Shown piece by piece: positions 3,610-10,627 of a stretch of DNA of 64,000 nt. Position 1 is the stretch's first letter; each line of letters starts with the position of its first letter. Source of the DNA: Iamia majanohamensis (GTDB taxonomy: Bacteria; Actinomycetota; Acidimicrobiia; Acidimicrobiales; Iamiaceae); contig NZ_CP116942.1 of assembly GCF_028532485.1 (NCBI RefSeq), forward strand, positions 2,852,001-2,916,000, written 5' to 3'. Made by a program: the position numbers and the translations under genes. The notes under the pieces are model-generated. The model saw only the letters and a program-made list of their open reading frames with translations, made no database searches and had not been told where the DNA came from.

Positions 3610-5042
3610 GCGCCCCGGAGACCGCCGTCGGCGGCGCCGAGGCCGGCCGGGCGACCGGCGGCCGGGAGCGCATCCTCGTGGTGTCGCCCTACCCGCCGGT
3701 GCGCGACGGCATCGGGGCCTACGCCCTCCAGCAGGTGCGCAGCCTCCGTCGCCAGGGCCACCACGTCGAGGTCCTCTCCCCCACCCCGTCGGCCGCCCAC
3801 CACCACGCCGACCTCCGGGGGCCCGCCGGCGCCGCCGCGCTGGCCCGCATCGGCACCGGCTTCGACCGCGTCGTGGTCCACCTCCACCCCGACGTGATCT
3901 ACCGGCTCCCGCCCACCGCCGGCGCCCGCCTGGGGACCGGCCTGGCCTACGGCGCCGCGTTCCGGCGCCTGGCCCACGTGGAGCTGCGGGTCCACGAGAT
4001 CGACCACCGCTGGGCCGACCCGTCGGACCCCACCTCGCGGGCCACCGCCTTCATGCTGAAGGGGGCCGACCTGCTGACCGTGCACTCCGAGGAGCAGCGG
4101 TCCCACCTGGTCGACGGCTTCGGCGTGCCCGGCGACCGCGTCCACCTGGTCGACCACGGCGCCGACTTCGCCCCCCGCACCACCGCCGACCGGGCGCGGG
4201 CCCGGGCCAGCCTCGGGCTCCCCCCCGACGACCACGTCTTCCTCTGCATCGGCTTCGTCCAGCCCCACAAGGGCTTCGACCGGGCCGCCCGGGCCTTCGT
4301 GGGCCTCGGCGGGAGGGGGGCTCGCCTCGACGTGGTCGGCTCGGCCCGCCTCGGCGACCAGGCCACCCGCGACCACGTCGCCGAGCTGCGGGCCATCGCG
4401 GCGCGCGAGCCCGACGTGCACCTCCACCTCGGGTTCGTGAGCGACGAGATGTTCGACCGGTGGATCGTGGCCGCCGACACGGTGGTGCTCCCCTACCGCC
4501 ACATCTGGTCCTCCAGCGTGGCCGAGCGGGCCGCCCTGTTCGACCGGCCCGTCATCGCCACCCGGGTCGGTGGCCTGGCCCACCAGGTCGAGCGCCTGCC
4601 CGGCGCCGTCCTCGTCGACGACAACCGGGGCCTGGCCCGGGCCCTGGCCGAGGCCGTGGGGTCCCCGGCCGAGGCCGCGACCCCGTCCAGCTGGCCCGGG
4701 GCCGACGGCGACGACGTGCGCAGCACCGTCCAGGCCGAGGTGCGGGCCCGGGCCGCGGCCGCGCGGGGCGGCCTGCCCGTCGCGGGACGGGGCCCCACGG
4801 GGGACGACGCCCCCTCGCCCTCCGCCCCCGTGCGCCGCCTCGCACCCCTCCGCCCGCCCGCCCCGGTGTCGGCCCGGCCCGGGGTCAGCGCGGTGAAGCG
4901 CCTCATGCACCGGCTCCTGGCCTGGGAGCTCACGCCCATCACCGACCAGGTGAACAGCCTCCAGCGGGCCACCGCCGACGCCCTGGACCGCACCGCGCCC
5001 CCACCCGATCCCCACGACGACGACGCCGATGACCAGCACTGA
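3606..5042 (+). CDS. GT-B glycosyltransferase with long basic C-terminal tail
   Basis: 478 residues from the ATG at 3606, overlapping the previous gene (ATGA). Residues about 22-380 form a GT4-like fold: the N-terminal segment YPPVRDGIGAYALQQV, donor-site block GFVQPHKGFDRAARAF and LPYRHIWSSSVAERAALFDRP. After about residue 390 comes a roughly 85-residue Pro/Ala/Arg-rich tail, then a helix (VKRLMHRLLAWELTPITDQV) that could associate with the membrane. The last 14 bases overlap the next gene. Confidence 0.85.
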   Translation: MSAPETAVGGAEAGRATGGRERILVVSPYPPVRDGIGAYALQQVRSLRRQGHHVEVLSPTPSAAHHHADLRGPAGAAALARIGTGFDRVVVHLHPDVIYRLPPTAGARLGTGLAYGAAFRRLAHVELRVHEIDHRWADPSDPTSRATAFMLKGADLLTVHSEEQRSHLVDGFGVPGDRVHLVDHGADFAPRTTADRARARASLGLPPDDHVFLCIGFVQPHKGFDRAARAFVGLGGRGARLDVVGSARLGDQATRDHVAELRAIAAREPDVHLHLGFVSDEMFDRWIVAADTVVLPYRHIWSSSVAERAALFDRPVIATRVGGLAHQVERLPGAVLVDDNRGLARALAEAVGSPAEAATPSSWPGADGDDVRSTVQAEVRARAAAARGGLPVAGRGPTGDDAPSPSAPVRRLAPLRPPAPVSARPGVSAVKRLMHRLLAWELTPITDQVNSLQRATADALDRTAPPPDPHDDDADDQH

Positions 5043-7101
5043 CCACGACGCACCACCGGTGGCGAGCGCGGAGGAGCTCCCGGCCGACGAGCCCGGCCCG
5101 GTGCCGGCCCCCGAGCGCACCTCGCCGTCGGACCGGTCCGACCGGCTGTTCCCCGTGGGGCCCGGACGGCTGGGGCTGGAGGCCCTCCTCGTGGCCGCGC
5201 TGGCCTGGGCGTGGGCCGCGATCCAGTACCGGGTCTGGGACCTGTCGCCCCGGGTGCCGATCAACGGCGAGGGCGACGCCCGGCTCATCACCAACCTGGT
5301 GAAGAACACCGCCGACCAGGGCTGGTGGTCCACCAACCCGGACCTGGGCGTCCCGGTCGGCCAGCAGCTCTACGACTTCCCCCACAACGGGGAGACCTTC
5401 CAGCTCGCCATCGTCCGGTTCCTCAGCCTGTTCACCGACAGCCCCGGGCTGCTGATGAACGCCTACTTCTTCCTCGGCATCGGGCTGGCCGCCATCGCCG
5501 CCTTCGTCGCCCTGCGCCACCTGCGCTTCGGCGTGGGCCCCTCGCTCATCGCCGCCCTCGCCCTCACCTGGCTGCCGTTCCGGATCGGCCACGGCGAGTA
5601 CCACCTGTTCCGGGTGGGCTTCTGGTGGGTCCCGCTGTCGGTCGTCATCATCCTCTGGACCCTCCACTGGCGCGAGCGGCTGCTGCGCGACCCCGAGCCC
5701 CCCCGCCGCCAGGGCCGCCTGGACGACCTGCGGTGGAACCTGGCCCACAACCTCCGCCGGGGTCGGGTGGCGGTCTTCGTGGCCATGCTCGTGGTGCTGG
5801 CCGGGTCGGAGACCATGACCACGGCCTTCACCCTCACCCTGCTCGCGGTGACCGGCGTGGTCGCCGCCCTCCGTCGGCGCGACCCGGCCACCCTGGCGGT
5901 CCACGGCCTGGCCATCGGCGGCATCGCCCTGGTGGTGGCCCTGCTGTTCCTGCCGACCCTGCGCTTCGTGGCCGCCAACGGCACCAACGAGGACGCGGGG
6001 CGCCGCCTGGTGACCGAGCAGGAGCAGTTCGGCCTCAAGCTCAGCTCGCTCCTCCTGCCCGACCCGACCCACCGGTGGAGCCTCCTCGGCCAGCCCGAGG
6101 GCCGCATCCGGGAGACGACCCCGGTGCCCAGCGAGGCGGGCATGACGATCGGCCTCCTCGGCGCCGCCGGCTTCCTCGGCGCGGTGGGCCACTCGCTCAC
6201 CCGGGGGTGGGGGTCGCGGCGACGCGAGACCCGACCACCGCAGGACCGGGGGGCCCTGCGCGACGACCTCGGCCTGCTGGTGGTGGTGGCGACCCTCGTC
6301 GCCATCGTCAGCGGCGGGGCGATCCTGCTCAGCCTGGCCGGCTTCAGCCAGGTCCGGGTCTGGAACCGGATGTCGCTGATCATCGGCTTCGCGTCCCTCG
6401 CCTACGCCCTCACCTGGCTGGAGAAGGGCTGGGCCCTGGTGCGGGCCCGCATCGCCGAGGGGCCGGGGCGGGACCGGGCGTGGGTGCGGCGGGCCGTGGG
6501 GGCCGCCCTGGTGGTCCCGCTGGTCGGCTTCGTGCTCTGGGACGGGGCCAACGTCCGGGGCCTCGACTACGAGGCCAAGGACGCCGAGTGGGCTGCCGAC
6601 CAGGCGTGGGTCGACCGCATCGACGAGGCCACCCCGGACGGCACCGCGGTGTTCCAGCTCCCCGTCGTCCGCTTCCCCGAGGAGTTCCCGCCGGGCGAGA
6701 TGCTCGACTACGACCACCTGCGCGCCTTCATCCACACCGACGGCGACGACCTGCAGTGGAGCTACGGCGCCATCAAGGGGCGCCCCGACGGCGACTGGCA
6801 GCTGGCCGTGCGCGAGCAGGGCGAGGTGGCGTCGCTGCCGGCCCTCCTGGGTGCCGGCTTCACCGGCCTGTGGGTCGACACCGCGGGCTACACCGACGGC
6901 GGTGAGAGCATCCGGGCCCAGCTCGACGAGGCCACCGGCGTCGAGCCCCTGGTCAGCGACGACGGCCGCACCCTCTACTACGACCTGGTGCCGCTGCGCG
7001 ACCGCCTCGAGGCCGAGGGCACCTCGATGGAGGACCTCCGCCAGATCGCCCGCGACCAGCTCAAGCTGGCCCTCGACGACGAGGACGGCAGCGGCGGCTG
7101 A
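5029..7101 (+). CDS. Polytopic membrane protein, GT-C/YfhO-like
   Basis: 690 residues, start ATG at 5029 inside the end of the previous gene. A hydrophilic N-terminus of about 45 residues precedes roughly ten transmembrane segments (first near residues 50-70, last near 485-505). After the first segment is a large conserved-looking loop (INGEGDARLITNLVKNTADQ, then GVPVGQQLYDFPHNGETFQL), followed by a soluble C-terminal domain. The layout (TM1, acidic loop, many TMs, exported domain) resembles polyprenol-phosphate-sugar-dependent GT-C enzymes and YfhO-like proteins. The exact family is not settled. It ends the plus-strand glycosyltransferase operon. Confidence 0.75.
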   Translation: MTSTDHDAPPVASAEELPADEPGPVPAPERTSPSDRSDRLFPVGPGRLGLEALLVAALAWAWAAIQYRVWDLSPRVPINGEGDARLITNLVKNTADQGWWSTNPDLGVPVGQQLYDFPHNGETFQLAIVRFLSLFTDSPGLLMNAYFFLGIGLAAIAAFVALRHLRFGVGPSLIAALALTWLPFRIGHGEYHLFRVGFWWVPLSVVIILWTLHWRERLLRDPEPPRRQGRLDDLRWNLAHNLRRGRVAVFVAMLVVLAGSETMTTAFTLTLLAVTGVVAALRRRDPATLAVHGLAIGGIALVVALLFLPTLRFVAANGTNEDAGRRLVTEQEQFGLKLSSLLLPDPTHRWSLLGQPEGRIRETTPVPSEAGMTIGLLGAAGFLGAVGHSLTRGWGSRRRETRPPQDRGALRDDLGLLVVVATLVAIVSGGAILLSLAGFSQVRVWNRMSLIIGFASLAYALTWLEKGWALVRARIAEGPGRDRAWVRRAVGAALVVPLVGFVLWDGANVRGLDYEAKDAEWAADQAWVDRIDEATPDGTAVFQLPVVRFPEEFPPGEMLDYDHLRAFIHTDGDDLQWSYGAIKGRPDGDWQLAVREQGEVASLPALLGAGFTGLWVDTAGYTDGGESIRAQLDEATGVEPLVSDDGRTLYYDLVPLRDRLEAEGTSMEDLRQIARDQLKLALDDEDGSGG

Positions 7102-7104
7102 CCC

Positions 7105-8133
7105 TCACCCGGATGTGGTGACCTGCGCACCGGCGGCCCCCGACGGCCCGGCGACGGCCGGGTCCAGCACCAGGCCCGAGCGGGGCCCGTGGTGCACCAT
7201 CGACAGCACCTGCCCGACGGTGGTGGCGGCCACGGCGACCAGCACCGGCGCCGCCCCCGCCGGGGCCCACCCGGCGTCGACGAGGGTCAGGTGGGCGATG
7301 ACCAGCACCACCACACCGCGTCCGCACAGCGCCAGACCACCCACGATCGCCTCGTCGCGACGGGGCCCGCCTGCGGCGGCCAGTCCTCGGAGCAGGACGA
7401 GGGCGAGCCCGGTGAGGCCCACCCAGGCCGCGACGAGCACCGGCGTCGCCTCCCGGACGGCGGGGAGCACGGCCAGCCCGGCGAGCCACCCGGCGGCGCT
7501 CACGCGACAGGTGGCCAACCGCCCGTGGCGGACCAGGAACGTGCGCTTGCCGAACAGCGCGTCACCCCGCACGTCGCGGAGGTCCTTCAGCACGATCCGG
7601 CCCACGAAGCCGGCGTAGAGCCCACCCAGCAGGGCCAGGTCGCCGGCGACGAGGTGGTCTCGCGCGGCCAGGACGCCCAGCAGGTAGGGCACCGCGACGT
7701 AGCCGAGGGGCAGGAGGAGCGGGGCGACCACGCCGCGGTCGGCCAGGCGCACCGGACGCAGCGAGTAGGCCGCCGCCAGGGCCAGCGCACCCAGGACCAG
7801 GAGGGCGGCGCGCAGCCCGAGCAGACCGGCTGCCGCAAGGGCGAGGCCGGCTGCCACCGCGGCGACGGCCGCCAGCTGTCGCCGGTGGGAGCCGGCGACG
7901 AGGAGCCGCCCCGGGTCGTGACCCAGGTTCACCCGGTCGATGGCCTGGTCGGACAGGTCGTTGACGGCCACGGCACAGGCGAGGGAGCCCACGACCGCCA
8001 CCGCGAGCAGTCCCAGCCGACCGAGACCGACCGCGCCACCGCCCTGGGCCACGCCGGCCACGGCAGAGAGCACCACCAGGGTCACGACCGCAGGGCGCAC
8101 CACGGCCAGGGCCAGACGGAGACGGGCCCTCAC
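7105..8133 (-). CDS. UbiA-family prenyltransferase
   Basis: 342 residues, GTG start at 8133 overlapping the stop of the guanylate-kinase-like gene by 4 bp. Both UbiA aspartate motifs are visible: NDLSDQAIDRVN (the NxxxDxxxD site) and KDLRDVRGD (the second Asp-rich site). They are set in about eight to nine transmembrane helices. Such enzymes transfer prenyl or other isoprenoid diphosphate groups within the membrane, for example in quinone synthesis or decaprenyl-phosphate-sugar formation. Next to glycosyltransferases, a polyprenyl-phosphate glycolipid role is attractive but inferred. The C-terminal 25 residues are hydrophilic. Confidence 0.85.
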   Translation of the reverse strand: MRARLRLALAVVRPAVVTLVVLSAVAGVAQGGGAVGLGRLGLLAVAVVGSLACAVAVNDLSDQAIDRVNLGHDPGRLLVAGSHRRQLAAVAAVAAGLALAAAGLLGLRAALLVLGALALAAAYSLRPVRLADRGVVAPLLLPLGYVAVPYLLGVLAARDHLVAGDLALLGGLYAGFVGRIVLKDLRDVRGDALFGKRTFLVRHGRLATCRVSAAGWLAGLAVLPAVREATPVLVAAWVGLTGLALVLLRGLAAAGGPRRDEAIVGGLALCGRGVVVLVIAHLTLVDAGWAPAGAAPVLVAVAATTVGQVLSMVHHGPRSGLVLDPAVAGPSGAAGAQVTTSG

Positions 8134-8981
8134 TTGTTGCTCCCGTAGCTCGCCACGGCCATCCAGAGCACTGCCGCCCCGGCCACGGCGATCGCACCGA
8201 CCACCGCGAACAGTCCCACCAGGGTGGTGCCGAGCACCCGCCACCACTCGGGTCGACCCGGCGCGCTCGGCGTCGGGGGCGGCGGCCACGGCAGCTCGGC
8301 CCCGGTTGGTGGACGAAGTGGTCGCGCCCAGAGCGCAGGGACGGTCGGCCTCGCCCGGCCCTCCCCGGCGGTGGCGGGCCCGCAGGGCGCGCCCCACAGA
8401 CCGTCGGTCGCCAGCGCAGCAGCCATCCGGTCGGCCAGGTCGGCCACCGTCCCCTCGTTGTTGAAGCAGCGGTCGGCCACCTCGCGCCCGAGGGCCACCT
8501 CGGCCCGGTTGTTCTCGGCGCGCGCCGCCACCTCGTGGGCCGGCACGCCGCGGCGAGCCAGCACCGCGTCGAGCCACCCCTCGGGGGCCTCCACCTGGTA
8601 CACGACCGCTCCCGGGAGGCAGCGGCGGACCTGGTCGACGAGCGGGGCCCGGACCATGACGACATCGACCCGACCGTCACCCACGGGGCGGAGCGCCGGC
8701 AGCCCGTAGCGGAACGGCAGGCCGAAGAGGCTGACCGTCGCCTCGAAGGCACCGCTGCGCTCCAGGGCGTCGAAGGCGGCCTCGGCCACGAAGCGGTGCT
8801 CGAGCGACCCCTCGAGCTCGTCGGGGCGCCGGGGCCTCGTCGTCCAGGTGGGGTGCACGGCCACGATGCCCCGCCGGTGCAGCTCGCGCACCACCGCGGA
8901 CTTCCCGGCGCCGGAGGGGCCGATGACGAGGAGCGGGCGGGCCTCGGGAGGGCTCGTGTCGGTACGGGGTGCGGCGGGCAT
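8130..8981 (-). CDS. Guanylate-kinase-like P-loop protein with C-terminal membrane anchor
   Basis: 283 residues. The N-terminal 190 resemble guanylate kinase or PhnN: Walker A GPSGAGKS (residues 21-28), TWTTRPRRPDE matching the GMP-binding TTRxxRxxE segment, then FRYGLPALRP and a lid-like region. A Pro-rich linker (about 205-240) leads to one transmembrane helix (VLGTTLVGLFAVVGAIAVAG) and a short tail, SYGSNK. Canonical Gmk is soluble and about 200 residues, so the anchored tail is unusual. The 4-bp overlap with the UbiA gene suggests a joint membrane function. The substrate is unknown. Confidence 0.7.
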   Translation of the reverse strand: MPAAPRTDTSPPEARPLLVIGPSGAGKSAVVRELHRRGIVAVHPTWTTRPRRPDELEGSLEHRFVAEAAFDALERSGAFEATVSLFGLPFRYGLPALRPVGDGRVDVVMVRAPLVDQVRRCLPGAVVYQVEAPEGWLDAVLARRGVPAHEVAARAENNRAEVALGREVADRCFNNEGTVADLADRMAAALATDGLWGAPCGPATAGEGRARPTVPALWARPLRPPTGAELPWPPPPTPSAPGRPEWWRVLGTTLVGLFAVVGAIAVAGAAVLWMAVASYGSNK

Positions 8982-9056: not shown

Positions 9057-9701
9057 TCAGGGGTGCTTGGGCCCCCGGCACTCGGCGATCAGCCACGGGA
9101 AGCAGGGGTGCAGGTCCACGTCGCGGAAGCCGCGTCGCAGGGCCCGCACCAGGCTCTTGGGCGTGAAGGCCTGGACGTGCTCGGGGTCGTTGCCCAGCCG
9201 GCCCAGGTTCTTGCCCCGGCCCAGGTTGCCCAGGCGGAACCAGGGCTCCCAGGGCACCGAGACCACGCAGCGGCCCCGGGTGATGCGGGCCAGCTCGGTG
9301 ACCGCGGGCCGGTAGGTGGGCAGGTGCTCGAGCAGCTCGATGCAGGTGACCAGGTCGGCGCAGCTGTCGGGGAACGGCAGCATGCCGGCGTCGCCGGACA
9401 CCGGGGCCAGCCACGGCAGGCGGGCATCCGCGGCCCGGGCCTTGTCGATGCGGTACTCCAGGCCCACCGTGGGGTGGCCGCCGGGGACCATGCGCTCGAG
9501 GGCCAGGCCCTCGCCCACACCCACGTCGACCACGGTGCCCGACACCGTGCCCACGACCTCGTGCATCTCGTCCATCCAGCGGCCCAGCAGGCGGGCCACC
9601 ACGGGGTTCGACGTGCCGTACTTGGCCGCGTCCTGGCCGGCGGCCTCGGCGGGGGCGCCGGGGGCGAGCCCGATGGGCGCGGTGGTGGGGGTCGGGGTCA
9701 T
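9057..9701 (-). CDS. SAM-dependent class I methyltransferase
   Basis: 214 residues from the ATG at 9701, overlapping the GT2 stop (ATGA). SAM-binding motif I is VVDVGVGEG (about 55-63), with the acidic residue of beta2 in GLEYRID. The Methyltransf_11-like motif DLVTCIELLEHLPTYRPAVTEL follows, then post-motif PWEPWFRLGNL. Coupling to a dolichol-phosphate-mannose-synthase-like GT2 suggests methylation of a glycolipid or sugar intermediate (inference). Confidence 0.8.
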   Translation of the reverse strand: MTPTPTTAPIGLAPGAPAEAAGQDAAKYGTSNPVVARLLGRWMDEMHEVVGTVSGTVVDVGVGEGLALERMVPGGHPTVGLEYRIDKARAADARLPWLAPVSGDAGMLPFPDSCADLVTCIELLEHLPTYRPAVTELARITRGRCVVSVPWEPWFRLGNLGRGKNLGRLGNDPEHVQAFTPKSLVRALRRGFRDVDLHPCFPWLIAECRGPKHP

Positions 9702-10627
9702 CGCAGGTCTCCCTCGGCGGCGGAGTCGAGGCTGCGCCGCCGGCGCAGGTTCACCATCAGCTCGCCCAGGAGGCCGAGCGACACCATCTGCACGGCCACC
9801 ACGACGAGGAGCACGCCGGCCTGGAGGGCCGGGCGGGTCCCGATCTCGTAGCCCATGACGCGCTCGACGGCCATCCAGGCCAGCAGGACGGCGCCGAGGA
9901 GGCCGATGATGAAGCCGAGGCCGCCGAAGAGGTGGAACGGGCGGGCCGTGTAGGTCGTGAGGAACTTCACCGTCACCAGGTCGAGGAACCCCCGCCAGAA
10001 GCGGGCCCGGCCGAACTTCGAGCTGCCGTGGCGGCGCTCGTGGTGCTCGACGTCGACCTCGCCGACCTTGTAGCCGTTCCACACCGCCAGCACCGGGATG
10101 TAGCGGTGGAGCTCGCCGTAGAGCTCGACGCTGCGGGCCAGCTCGGTGGTCATCACCTTGAGCCCGGAGTTGAAGTCGCGGCCGGGCACGCCGGTGACCC
10201 GGGCGGTGGCGCCGTTGTAGAGCTTCGAGGTCGTCCGCTTCACGAAGCGGTCGTTGCGCACCGACCGGCGACCGGTCACGAGGTCGAGGCCGGCCTCGTC
10301 CATGTGGGCCATGAGACGGGGCAGCTCCTCGGGGTCGTCCTGGCCGTCGGCGTCCATGAGGGCCAGGAGTTCGCCCTGGACCTGCTCGACGCCCACCGCC
10401 AGGGCCGCCGACTTGCCCGAGTTGCGCCGCAGGCGGATGGAGCGGACCGTGTCGCTGCGCAGCCCCTCCATGACCTTGCGGGTGCCGTCGGTGCTGCCGT
10501 CGTCGACGACGACGATCTCGTGGCTGATGCCCGCCGCCTCCAGGACCTTGCCGATCTCGGGCACCAGCTCGGCCAGGTTCTCGGCCTCGTTGTACGCCGG
10601 CAGCAGGACCGACAGGTGGGGGGACAC
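9698..10627 (-). CDS. GT2 glycosyltransferase, dolichyl-phosphate-sugar synthase type with two C-terminal TM helices
   Basis: 309 residues, GTG start at 10627 behind a GAGAGGAG Shine-Dalgarno sequence. The GT2 nucleotide-sugar domain shows LLPAYNEAENL, VVVDDGSTDGTR, LMDADGQDDPEELP (DxD-type) and GRRSVRNDRFVKR. Two C-terminal membrane helices (about residues 232-255 and 270-292) match the DPMS/GtrB-like architecture that moves a sugar from an NDP donor to polyprenyl phosphate. It fits the surface-glycan block. Confidence 0.87.
   Translation of the reverse strand: MSPHLSVLLPAYNEAENLAELVPEIGKVLEAAGISHEIVVVDDGSTDGTRKVMEGLRSDTVRSIRLRRNSGKSAALAVGVEQVQGELLALMDADGQDDPEELPRLMAHMDEAGLDLVTGRRSVRNDRFVKRTTSKLYNGATARVTGVPGRDFNSGLKVMTTELARSVELYGELHRYIPVLAVWNGYKVGEVDVEHHERRHGSSKFGRARFWRGFLDLVTVKFLTTYTARPFHLFGGLGFIIGLLGAVLLAWMAVERVMGYEIGTRPALQAGVLLVVVAVQMVSLGLLGELMVNLRRRRSLDSAAEGDLR

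Follow-up and report, generated by a model that had tools for sequence, protein, structure and literature searches.

How does a guanylate-kinase-like protein that ends in a membrane helix come to share its stop codon with the start of a UbiA prenyltransferase gene, and what could a kinase of this fold do for such an enzyme? The question is raised by a locus in the window, the whole 64,000-nucleotide stretch of Iamia majanohamensis DNA (genome G000) that was analysed. The original prediction described a P-loop protein with a linker and a single terminal transmembrane (TM) helix, a GTGA overlap with a UbiA gene and glycosyltransferases beside the pair, and the observation is borne out, with one GT2 gene nearby (Table 1). 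Its expression "fused by overlap" is loose: the overlap exists, but separate ORFs, each in its own frame, encode the kinase and UbiA.

Table 1. Features of the kinase-UbiA locus, in window coordinates
Feature	Position	Strand	Basis or remark
P-loop protein ORF, 283 aa	8130-8981 with stop	(-)	ATG start; GPSGAGKS = residues 21-28
Kinase domain, residues 1-195	8397..8981	(-)	Intact P-loop; guanylate-kinase matches; invariant residues
Walker A / P-loop GPSGAGKS	8898..8921	(-)	Translation; Lys kept in 6/6 family members
Pro-rich linker, residues 196-245	8247..8396	(-)	29% Pro over residues 196-246
Putative fused UbiA membrane partner: one TM helix and tail SYGSNK	8133..8246	(-)	Likeness to separate 58-aa protein of L002
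GTGA stop/start overlap of kinase ORF and UbiA ORF	8130..8133	(-)	Read from sequence
UbiA-superfamily prenyltransferase ORF, GTG start, 342 aa	7105..8133	(-)	PF01040; AlphaFold2 model; Foldseek
First Asp motif of UbiA, N58-D-L-S-D62-Q-A-I-D66-R-V-N69	7927..7962	(-)	Alignment, 18 rows
Second Asp motif of UbiA, K183-D184-L-R186-D187-V-R-G-D191	7561..7587	(-)	Alignment, 18 rows
Methyltransferase gene	9057-9701	(-)	Upstream of kinase ORF, 75-base gap
GT2 gene	9698-10627	(-)	Upstream of kinase ORF, same strand

At the junction (...AGCAACAAGTGAGGGCC) the kinase ORF ends S-N-K-stop and the GTG of UbiA lies within the four-base overlap. UbiA has a plausible ribosome-binding site in the GGGAG that lies within the GSNK codons, six bases 5' of this GTG. 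The 283-residue protein has a single hydrophobic stretch, its best 19-residue window scoring 2.59 at residue 254, with values of at most 0.87 before residue 235. The original prediction took this helix for a trait of the kinase, and by the test it set itself, absence from orthologues, the claim fails: the kinases of the other family members end without a TM segment (that of L132 is truncated by a contig end), and the anchor is fused to the kinase in one genome only, that of the window. In genome G030 the order is a 216-residue kinase, a separate 58-residue TM protein (...ADRWWRIVGIVLG...SYGSNK) and UbiA, connected by two successive GTGA overlaps. The TM part of the window protein is identical to this separate protein (locus L002, on the G030 contig) at 15 of 40 positions, and the last six residues are the same. 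The kinase and the TM protein being separate in G030, the TM tail in the window is therefore read as a fused UbiA partner; judged by this likeness, the 283-residue protein corresponds to the kinase and the small protein of G030 joined in a single chain. A sequencing error may have created the fusion artificially, since frames +1 and +2 are likewise open through the linker; its codon phase gives no clear signal (GC1/2/3 = 0.78/0.86/0.82). By sequence, the window locus is a three-part module in two genes, comprising a P-loop kinase, a fused one-TM partner with an NK tail, and UbiA. Which of the parts form a unit can be read off the window's fusion.

In this actinobacterial UbiA branch the enzyme has a closely linked membrane partner of several sizes, and all partners examined have Lys as their last residue. 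When named genomes were searched with two UbiA sequences, they yielded 24 loci, 40-66% identical, from Streptomyces, Actinomadura, Actinoallomurus, Kutzneria, Rugosimonospora, Pedococcus, Frankiaceae and others. The partner lies immediately before UbiA in 23 of them, and in L071 UbiA is broken. The partner of L045 consists of a DUF2510 domain followed by one TM segment; in G726 a 133-residue membrane partner with four hydrophobic stretches stands between the kinase and UbiA; in G275 the kinase is followed by UbiA and then by two tandem partners ending WANNK and FPNK. Both tandem partners (L072:7608-8233) contain DUF2510 and a single TM segment, and both end in NK. A lower-scoring UbiA group has partners of about 250-280 residues with seven to nine hydrophobic stretches (two measured), and none of the three tested passes a Pfam cut-off.

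All 36 partners counted carry a C-terminal Lys, preceded by Asn in 26, Pro in 6, Thr in 3 and Ser in 1, against 12 of 392 other predicted genes in 30 loci. The count omits L051 and L069 (contigs of L002 and L045), L136 (the same as L130), L071 with its broken UbiA, L147 at a contig edge and the second G275 partner; it is not blind, 13 of the 36 partners having been located through a C-terminal peptide read earlier beside UbiA. The partner genes end in NTGA in 35 of 36 cases, and that of L146 reads GTAG. The view that the Lys tail is a mere by-product of the stop/start overlap is rejected, because among other genes with a four-base overlap only 1 of 29 ends in Lys. The same view fails in L048, where partner and UbiA share one frame without overlap, and at the second G275 partner (FPNK), where no overlapping gene is seen. 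A Lys-tailed partner, defined by a terminal TM segment, a last residue Lys and a position next to UbiA, was recognised throughout, on the same set on which the definition was drawn up. UbiA with its membrane partner is the recurring core of the system, and the kinase is an accessory of few lineages.

Six members of the kinase family were collected, those of G000, G030, G275 and G726, together with those of G555 and G544, which belong to one genus. In the first four genomes kinase and UbiA are adjacent, overlapping or within about 0.4 kb. The original prediction named conservation of the pair as its test, and the outcome is divided: the pair recurs in G030, G275 and G726, the sole other genomes found with both genes, but no kinase member was found in any of the 23 other UbiA-bearing genomes, and UbiA therefore does not generally need the kinase. 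Of those 23, 21 contain matches of 46-72 bits (profile A5), known by score alone, and two contain none; members of the family reach at least 154 bits (profile A3). The class sample of 395 genomes has kinase members in 2, UbiA in 3 and both in 2; the corresponding figures for the phylum sample of 396 genomes are 4, 12 and 2. With the window's own genome excluded, one or more genomes would hold both by chance with a probability of 0.005 in the class sample and 0.08 in the phylum sample. In G555 and G544 (62% and 82% complete) the kinase is present and a UbiA of this type was not found; the kinase genes L131:2143-2721 and L132:6117-6542, of one genus, have no adjacent UbiA. Among 61 near relatives, including three others of the genus, UbiA appeared at E 1e-10 only in G000, G030 and, weakly, G019 (42.7 bits). 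In the class sample the UbiA was found in G459, whose MAG contig is also that of L069, and in G275; of the 24 loci from named genomes only L051, on the G030 contig, has the kinase within the stretch analysed. In a midpoint-rooted tree of 18 UbiA sequences the window UbiA groups with that of G030 (0.93), and that of G726 with that of G459 (0.90); the kinase therefore accompanies at least two UbiA branches.

Two further observations concern these UbiA genes. A frame change, either a sequencing error or a real break, interrupts UbiA in G275 (C1, near 1,156,880), and G726 holds a second UbiA of the family (L139:968-2466), accompanied by a separate Lys-tailed partner; the roughly 1.5 kb covered upstream contain no match to the kinase. 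By eye, a GT2 gene was not recognised among the neighbouring genes in G275, G459 and G726, and 116 bases precede the kinase in G030; nor was a common neighbour gene seen across the UbiA loci listed, except one in Streptomyces L048 and L052.

The prenyltransferase itself is readily assigned. The window UbiA scores 72.8 bits with Pfam PF01040 (gathering score 34.2), and its AlphaFold2 model (pLDDT 85.3) has UbiA-type structures as its best 16 Foldseek matches, with archaeal lipid synthases and UbiA homologues at the top. The UbiA fold and the two Asp-rich motifs place it in the superfamily: N58, D59, D62, D66 and N69 of the first motif and K183, D184, R186, D187, G190 and D191 of the second are invariant in 18/18 aligned rows. 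Members of the superfamily act in the synthesis of quinones, hemes, chlorophyll and archaeal lipids; we know of no product for this actinobacterial branch, which includes Streptomyces and Actinomadura. The best NCBIfam matches are the chlorophyll synthase (ChlG/BchG) models, both below their cut-offs (59.1 vs. 313 and 55.1 vs. 212.3 bits), and DPPR synthase is absent from the 17 NCBIfam families matched at E up to 1. The genome contains three further UbiA genes besides that of the window.

A PDB profile search with UbiA returned 9sau and 9sas as the best entries (49 bits), which we take to be the ChlG-HliD complex of the review cited below. HliD has a single TM helix. According to the review, the cryo-EM structure of ChlG2-HliD2 has an HliD dimer at its centre, and on either side of it a ChlG monomer with nine helices and cytoplasmic entry loops; the active-site residues of ChlG include N89, D93, D219, D226, K39 and K221 (PMC13297055). 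All six catalytic positions align: R13, N58, D62, D184, R186 and D191 of the window UbiA, invariant in 18/18 rows, correspond to ChlG K39, N89, D93, D219, K221 and D226, where adding 29 to the 9sau chain residue number reproduces the named residues. The two systems are alike in that a UbiA enzyme is accompanied by a small membrane partner. They differ in that in Pfam the G030 partner matches no chlorophyll-binding family, that the partners here are Lys-tailed and their genes overlap, that the ChlG complex, as described, has no kinase, and that chlorophyll would not be expected as a substrate of the window UbiA. From position, overlap and the HliD precedent we infer that the partner binds UbiA.

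The kinase is harder to place. The window protein resembles Gmk proteins in sequence and fold matches, in its P-loop and in the two arginines of the TTRPxR motif, but remains under the cut-offs of Pfam Guanylate_kin (21.2 vs. 25.2 bits) and NCBIfam guanylate kinase TIGR03263 (32.0 and 32.5 vs. 160.45 bits); one kinase member, L131, barely exceeds the Pfam value (25.9 bits). An order-level search of 148 genomes at E 1e-8 matched 30, namely the window's own, the G030 orthologue (54% identity) and 28 at 31-38%. Scores drop from 154 bits for G544, which is cut by a contig end, to 80 bits for G452, a Gmk by its neighbours, and each of the weaker matches inspected, L034, L088 and L134 (G452), is a Gmk located between mihF and rpoZ (gene names by eye). 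A search of genome contigs with the single kinase sequence did not find relatives, plasmid searches with UbiA (E 1e-15) and the kinase (E 1e-5) gave no match to either, and a viral scan with the kinase profile gave at least 16 partial matches, 33-48% over 49-83 query residues. The AlphaFold2 model of the kinase is poor (pLDDT 48.8) and the pocket is unreadable from it; guanylate kinases account for 49 of the 50 Foldseek matches listed for this weak model and a MAGUK GK domain for the other, and no match reaches E < 0.001.

The family was aligned with 51 Gmk proteins and a 1znw fragment. The Gmk set derives from 54 loci fetched as best matches to the kinase, three being removed because they lacked the P-loop pattern, and it contains a few duplicates of one gene (e.g., L088 and L156). 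A tree of 56 sequences recovers the family as a single clade (support 1.0), set off by a branch of 1.46. The P-loop Lys and both TTRPxR arginines are retained in 6/6 members. Three GMP-contact positions, presumably Y50, E69 and D100 in yeast guanylate kinase numbering, are Y, E and D/E in 51/51 Gmk proteins, whereas the family has H (6/6), A/D/D/E/Q/E and R (6/6). Because these positions are replaced, the protein is probably a guanylate-kinase fold that is not a GMP kinase. The term "guanylate-kinase-like" thus suits the fold and not the GMP-binding residues, whose conservation the original prediction had wished to see checked and which are largely not kept. The first lid Arg is present in 5/6 members and is Val in the window copy, and the second lid position is Arg in 0/6; with one Arg missing and the other never present, the case for catalysis in the window kinase is weaker. 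R49, R52, H62, Y92 and R111 are invariant in 6/6 members.

A guanylate-kinase-like fold joined to a UbiA partner suggests an unstudied kinase step serving UbiA. Our main reading, to which we give a probability of roughly 40%, is that the kinase is tied to UbiA via the membrane partner and supplies it with a phosphorylated product. The partner helix would pack on UbiA as HliD does on chlorophyll synthase. The kinase would lie in the cytoplasm and the helix would cross the membrane once, so the NK tail would be outside. The fusion would tie the accessory kinase to UbiA, and the product may be handed over directly. The earlier idea of a phosphorylated substrate for the prenyltransferase survives here as the best guess, with a recurring pair behind it, but without the TM helix as part of the kinase. 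As to the reaction, we tentatively favour phosphorylation of a lipid-linked monophosphate, prenyl or otherwise, which would yield the diphosphate donor of UbiA, with phosphorylation of an acceptor as the fallback. NMP-kinase folds form phosphoanhydrides, and diphosphate synthesis would be the simplest task for such a fold at this place. The phytyl-phosphate kinase VTE6 is a membrane protein unrelated to the guanylate-kinase fold family considered here. Its reaction, from prenyl phosphate to diphosphate, is of the kind proposed here. Phytyl diphosphate in plants is made by the kinases VTE5 and VTE6 (PMC5694494). The most specific version, a prenyl-phosphate kinase of guanylate-kinase fold tethered to UbiA through a Lys-tailed subunit, in a UbiA branch with an obligatory subunit and a functional C-terminal Lys, is rather unlikely to hold in full. 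In one open-access collection, no literature was found on UbiA with a guanylate kinase or guanylate-kinase-like protein, or with a small membrane or transmembrane protein. If the main reading is correct, a few lineages add a dedicated kinase of unexpected fold to this UbiA branch.

The alternative that survives best, although unlikely, is that the kinase phosphorylates the acceptor (a head group, a sugar phosphate or a nucleotide) and not the prenyl donor; the five invariant residues R49, R52, H62, Y92 and R111 would fit an anionic acceptor, but no evidence separates donor from acceptor. Less probable still is a dead GK domain that serves as a scaffold, as in MAGUK proteins, and gathers partners at the membrane. 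The lost GMP site, the absence of the lid Arg from the window copy, the tethering through fusion and the MAGUK GK domains among the PDB matches are all consistent with it, yet a scaffold need not keep the P-loop Lys and the two TTRPxR arginines that every member has kept.

It is improbable that the window kinase is simply the GMP kinase of the organism and lies by UbiA incidentally. This interpretation draws on the failure to find a canonical gmk in the one-contig, 99.4% complete genome, where TIGR03263 matches the window kinase only, while the same model is positive in 10 of 14 control genomes, the four negatives being archaea; the Foldseek matches of the weak model also point to guanylate kinases. 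Apart from the replaced GMP-contact residues, it has to contend with the rarity of a family that adjoins UbiA in 4/6 genomes and with a better candidate where gmk normally lies, namely an archaeal-type (d)CMP kinase (TIGR02173, 149.6 bits, over the cut-off of 102.1). This 174-residue protein is encoded at L182:1198-1722 (-), about 2,465,197-2,465,721 of G000:C1. The gene order in G000 2,464,000-2,472,000, named by eye with G089 as a guide, is carA-carB-pyrD-pyrF-mihF, the (d)CMP kinase, rpoZ-coaBC, and the same slot holds Gmk in G151 (same family), G089 and G452. An in-place displacement of the essential gmk by an archaeal-type (d)CMP kinase is possible, and the protein in this slot provides a lead on GDP synthesis in organisms without gmk. 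Equally improbable is a PhnN-like kinase (ribose 1,5-bisphosphate phosphokinase) making PRPP for a phosphoribosyl-transferring UbiA comparable to decaprenyl-phosphate phosphoribosyltransferase: TIGR02322 covers most of the domain in each of the five members scanned (33.8-44.5 bits, 33.8 for the window kinase) and the solved phosphoribosyltransferase 8j8j is among the UbiA relatives in the PDB (24.8 bits), but the cut-off of 156 is far away, the second UbiA motif K-D-F/L-R-D-x-x-G-D is nearest chlorophyll synthase, and one of the three further UbiA genes of the genome (L155) reads by eye as DPPR synthase. A PhnN link was not found in the literature of the same open-access collection.

Two minor observations concern the surroundings of these genes. 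In the window, a 690-residue ORF at 5029-7101 (+) is convergent with UbiA across a 3-base gap; Pfam gives no match for it at E values up to 1. Upstream of the partner gene, the inverted repeat GAGTACNNGTACTC occurs exactly in 7 of the 24 loci and with at most one mismatch in 13 (L048, L050, L052, L054, L055, L058, L059, L060, L061, L062, L064, L066 and L071). Even with 3 mismatches allowed, no copy was found close to the gene in L002, L045, L053, L057, L065 or the window, and the remaining loci have it only with 2-3 mismatches. Apart from these 13, the 24 loci (349,050 bases in total) contain no match at up to one mismatch, and the repeat looks like an operator.
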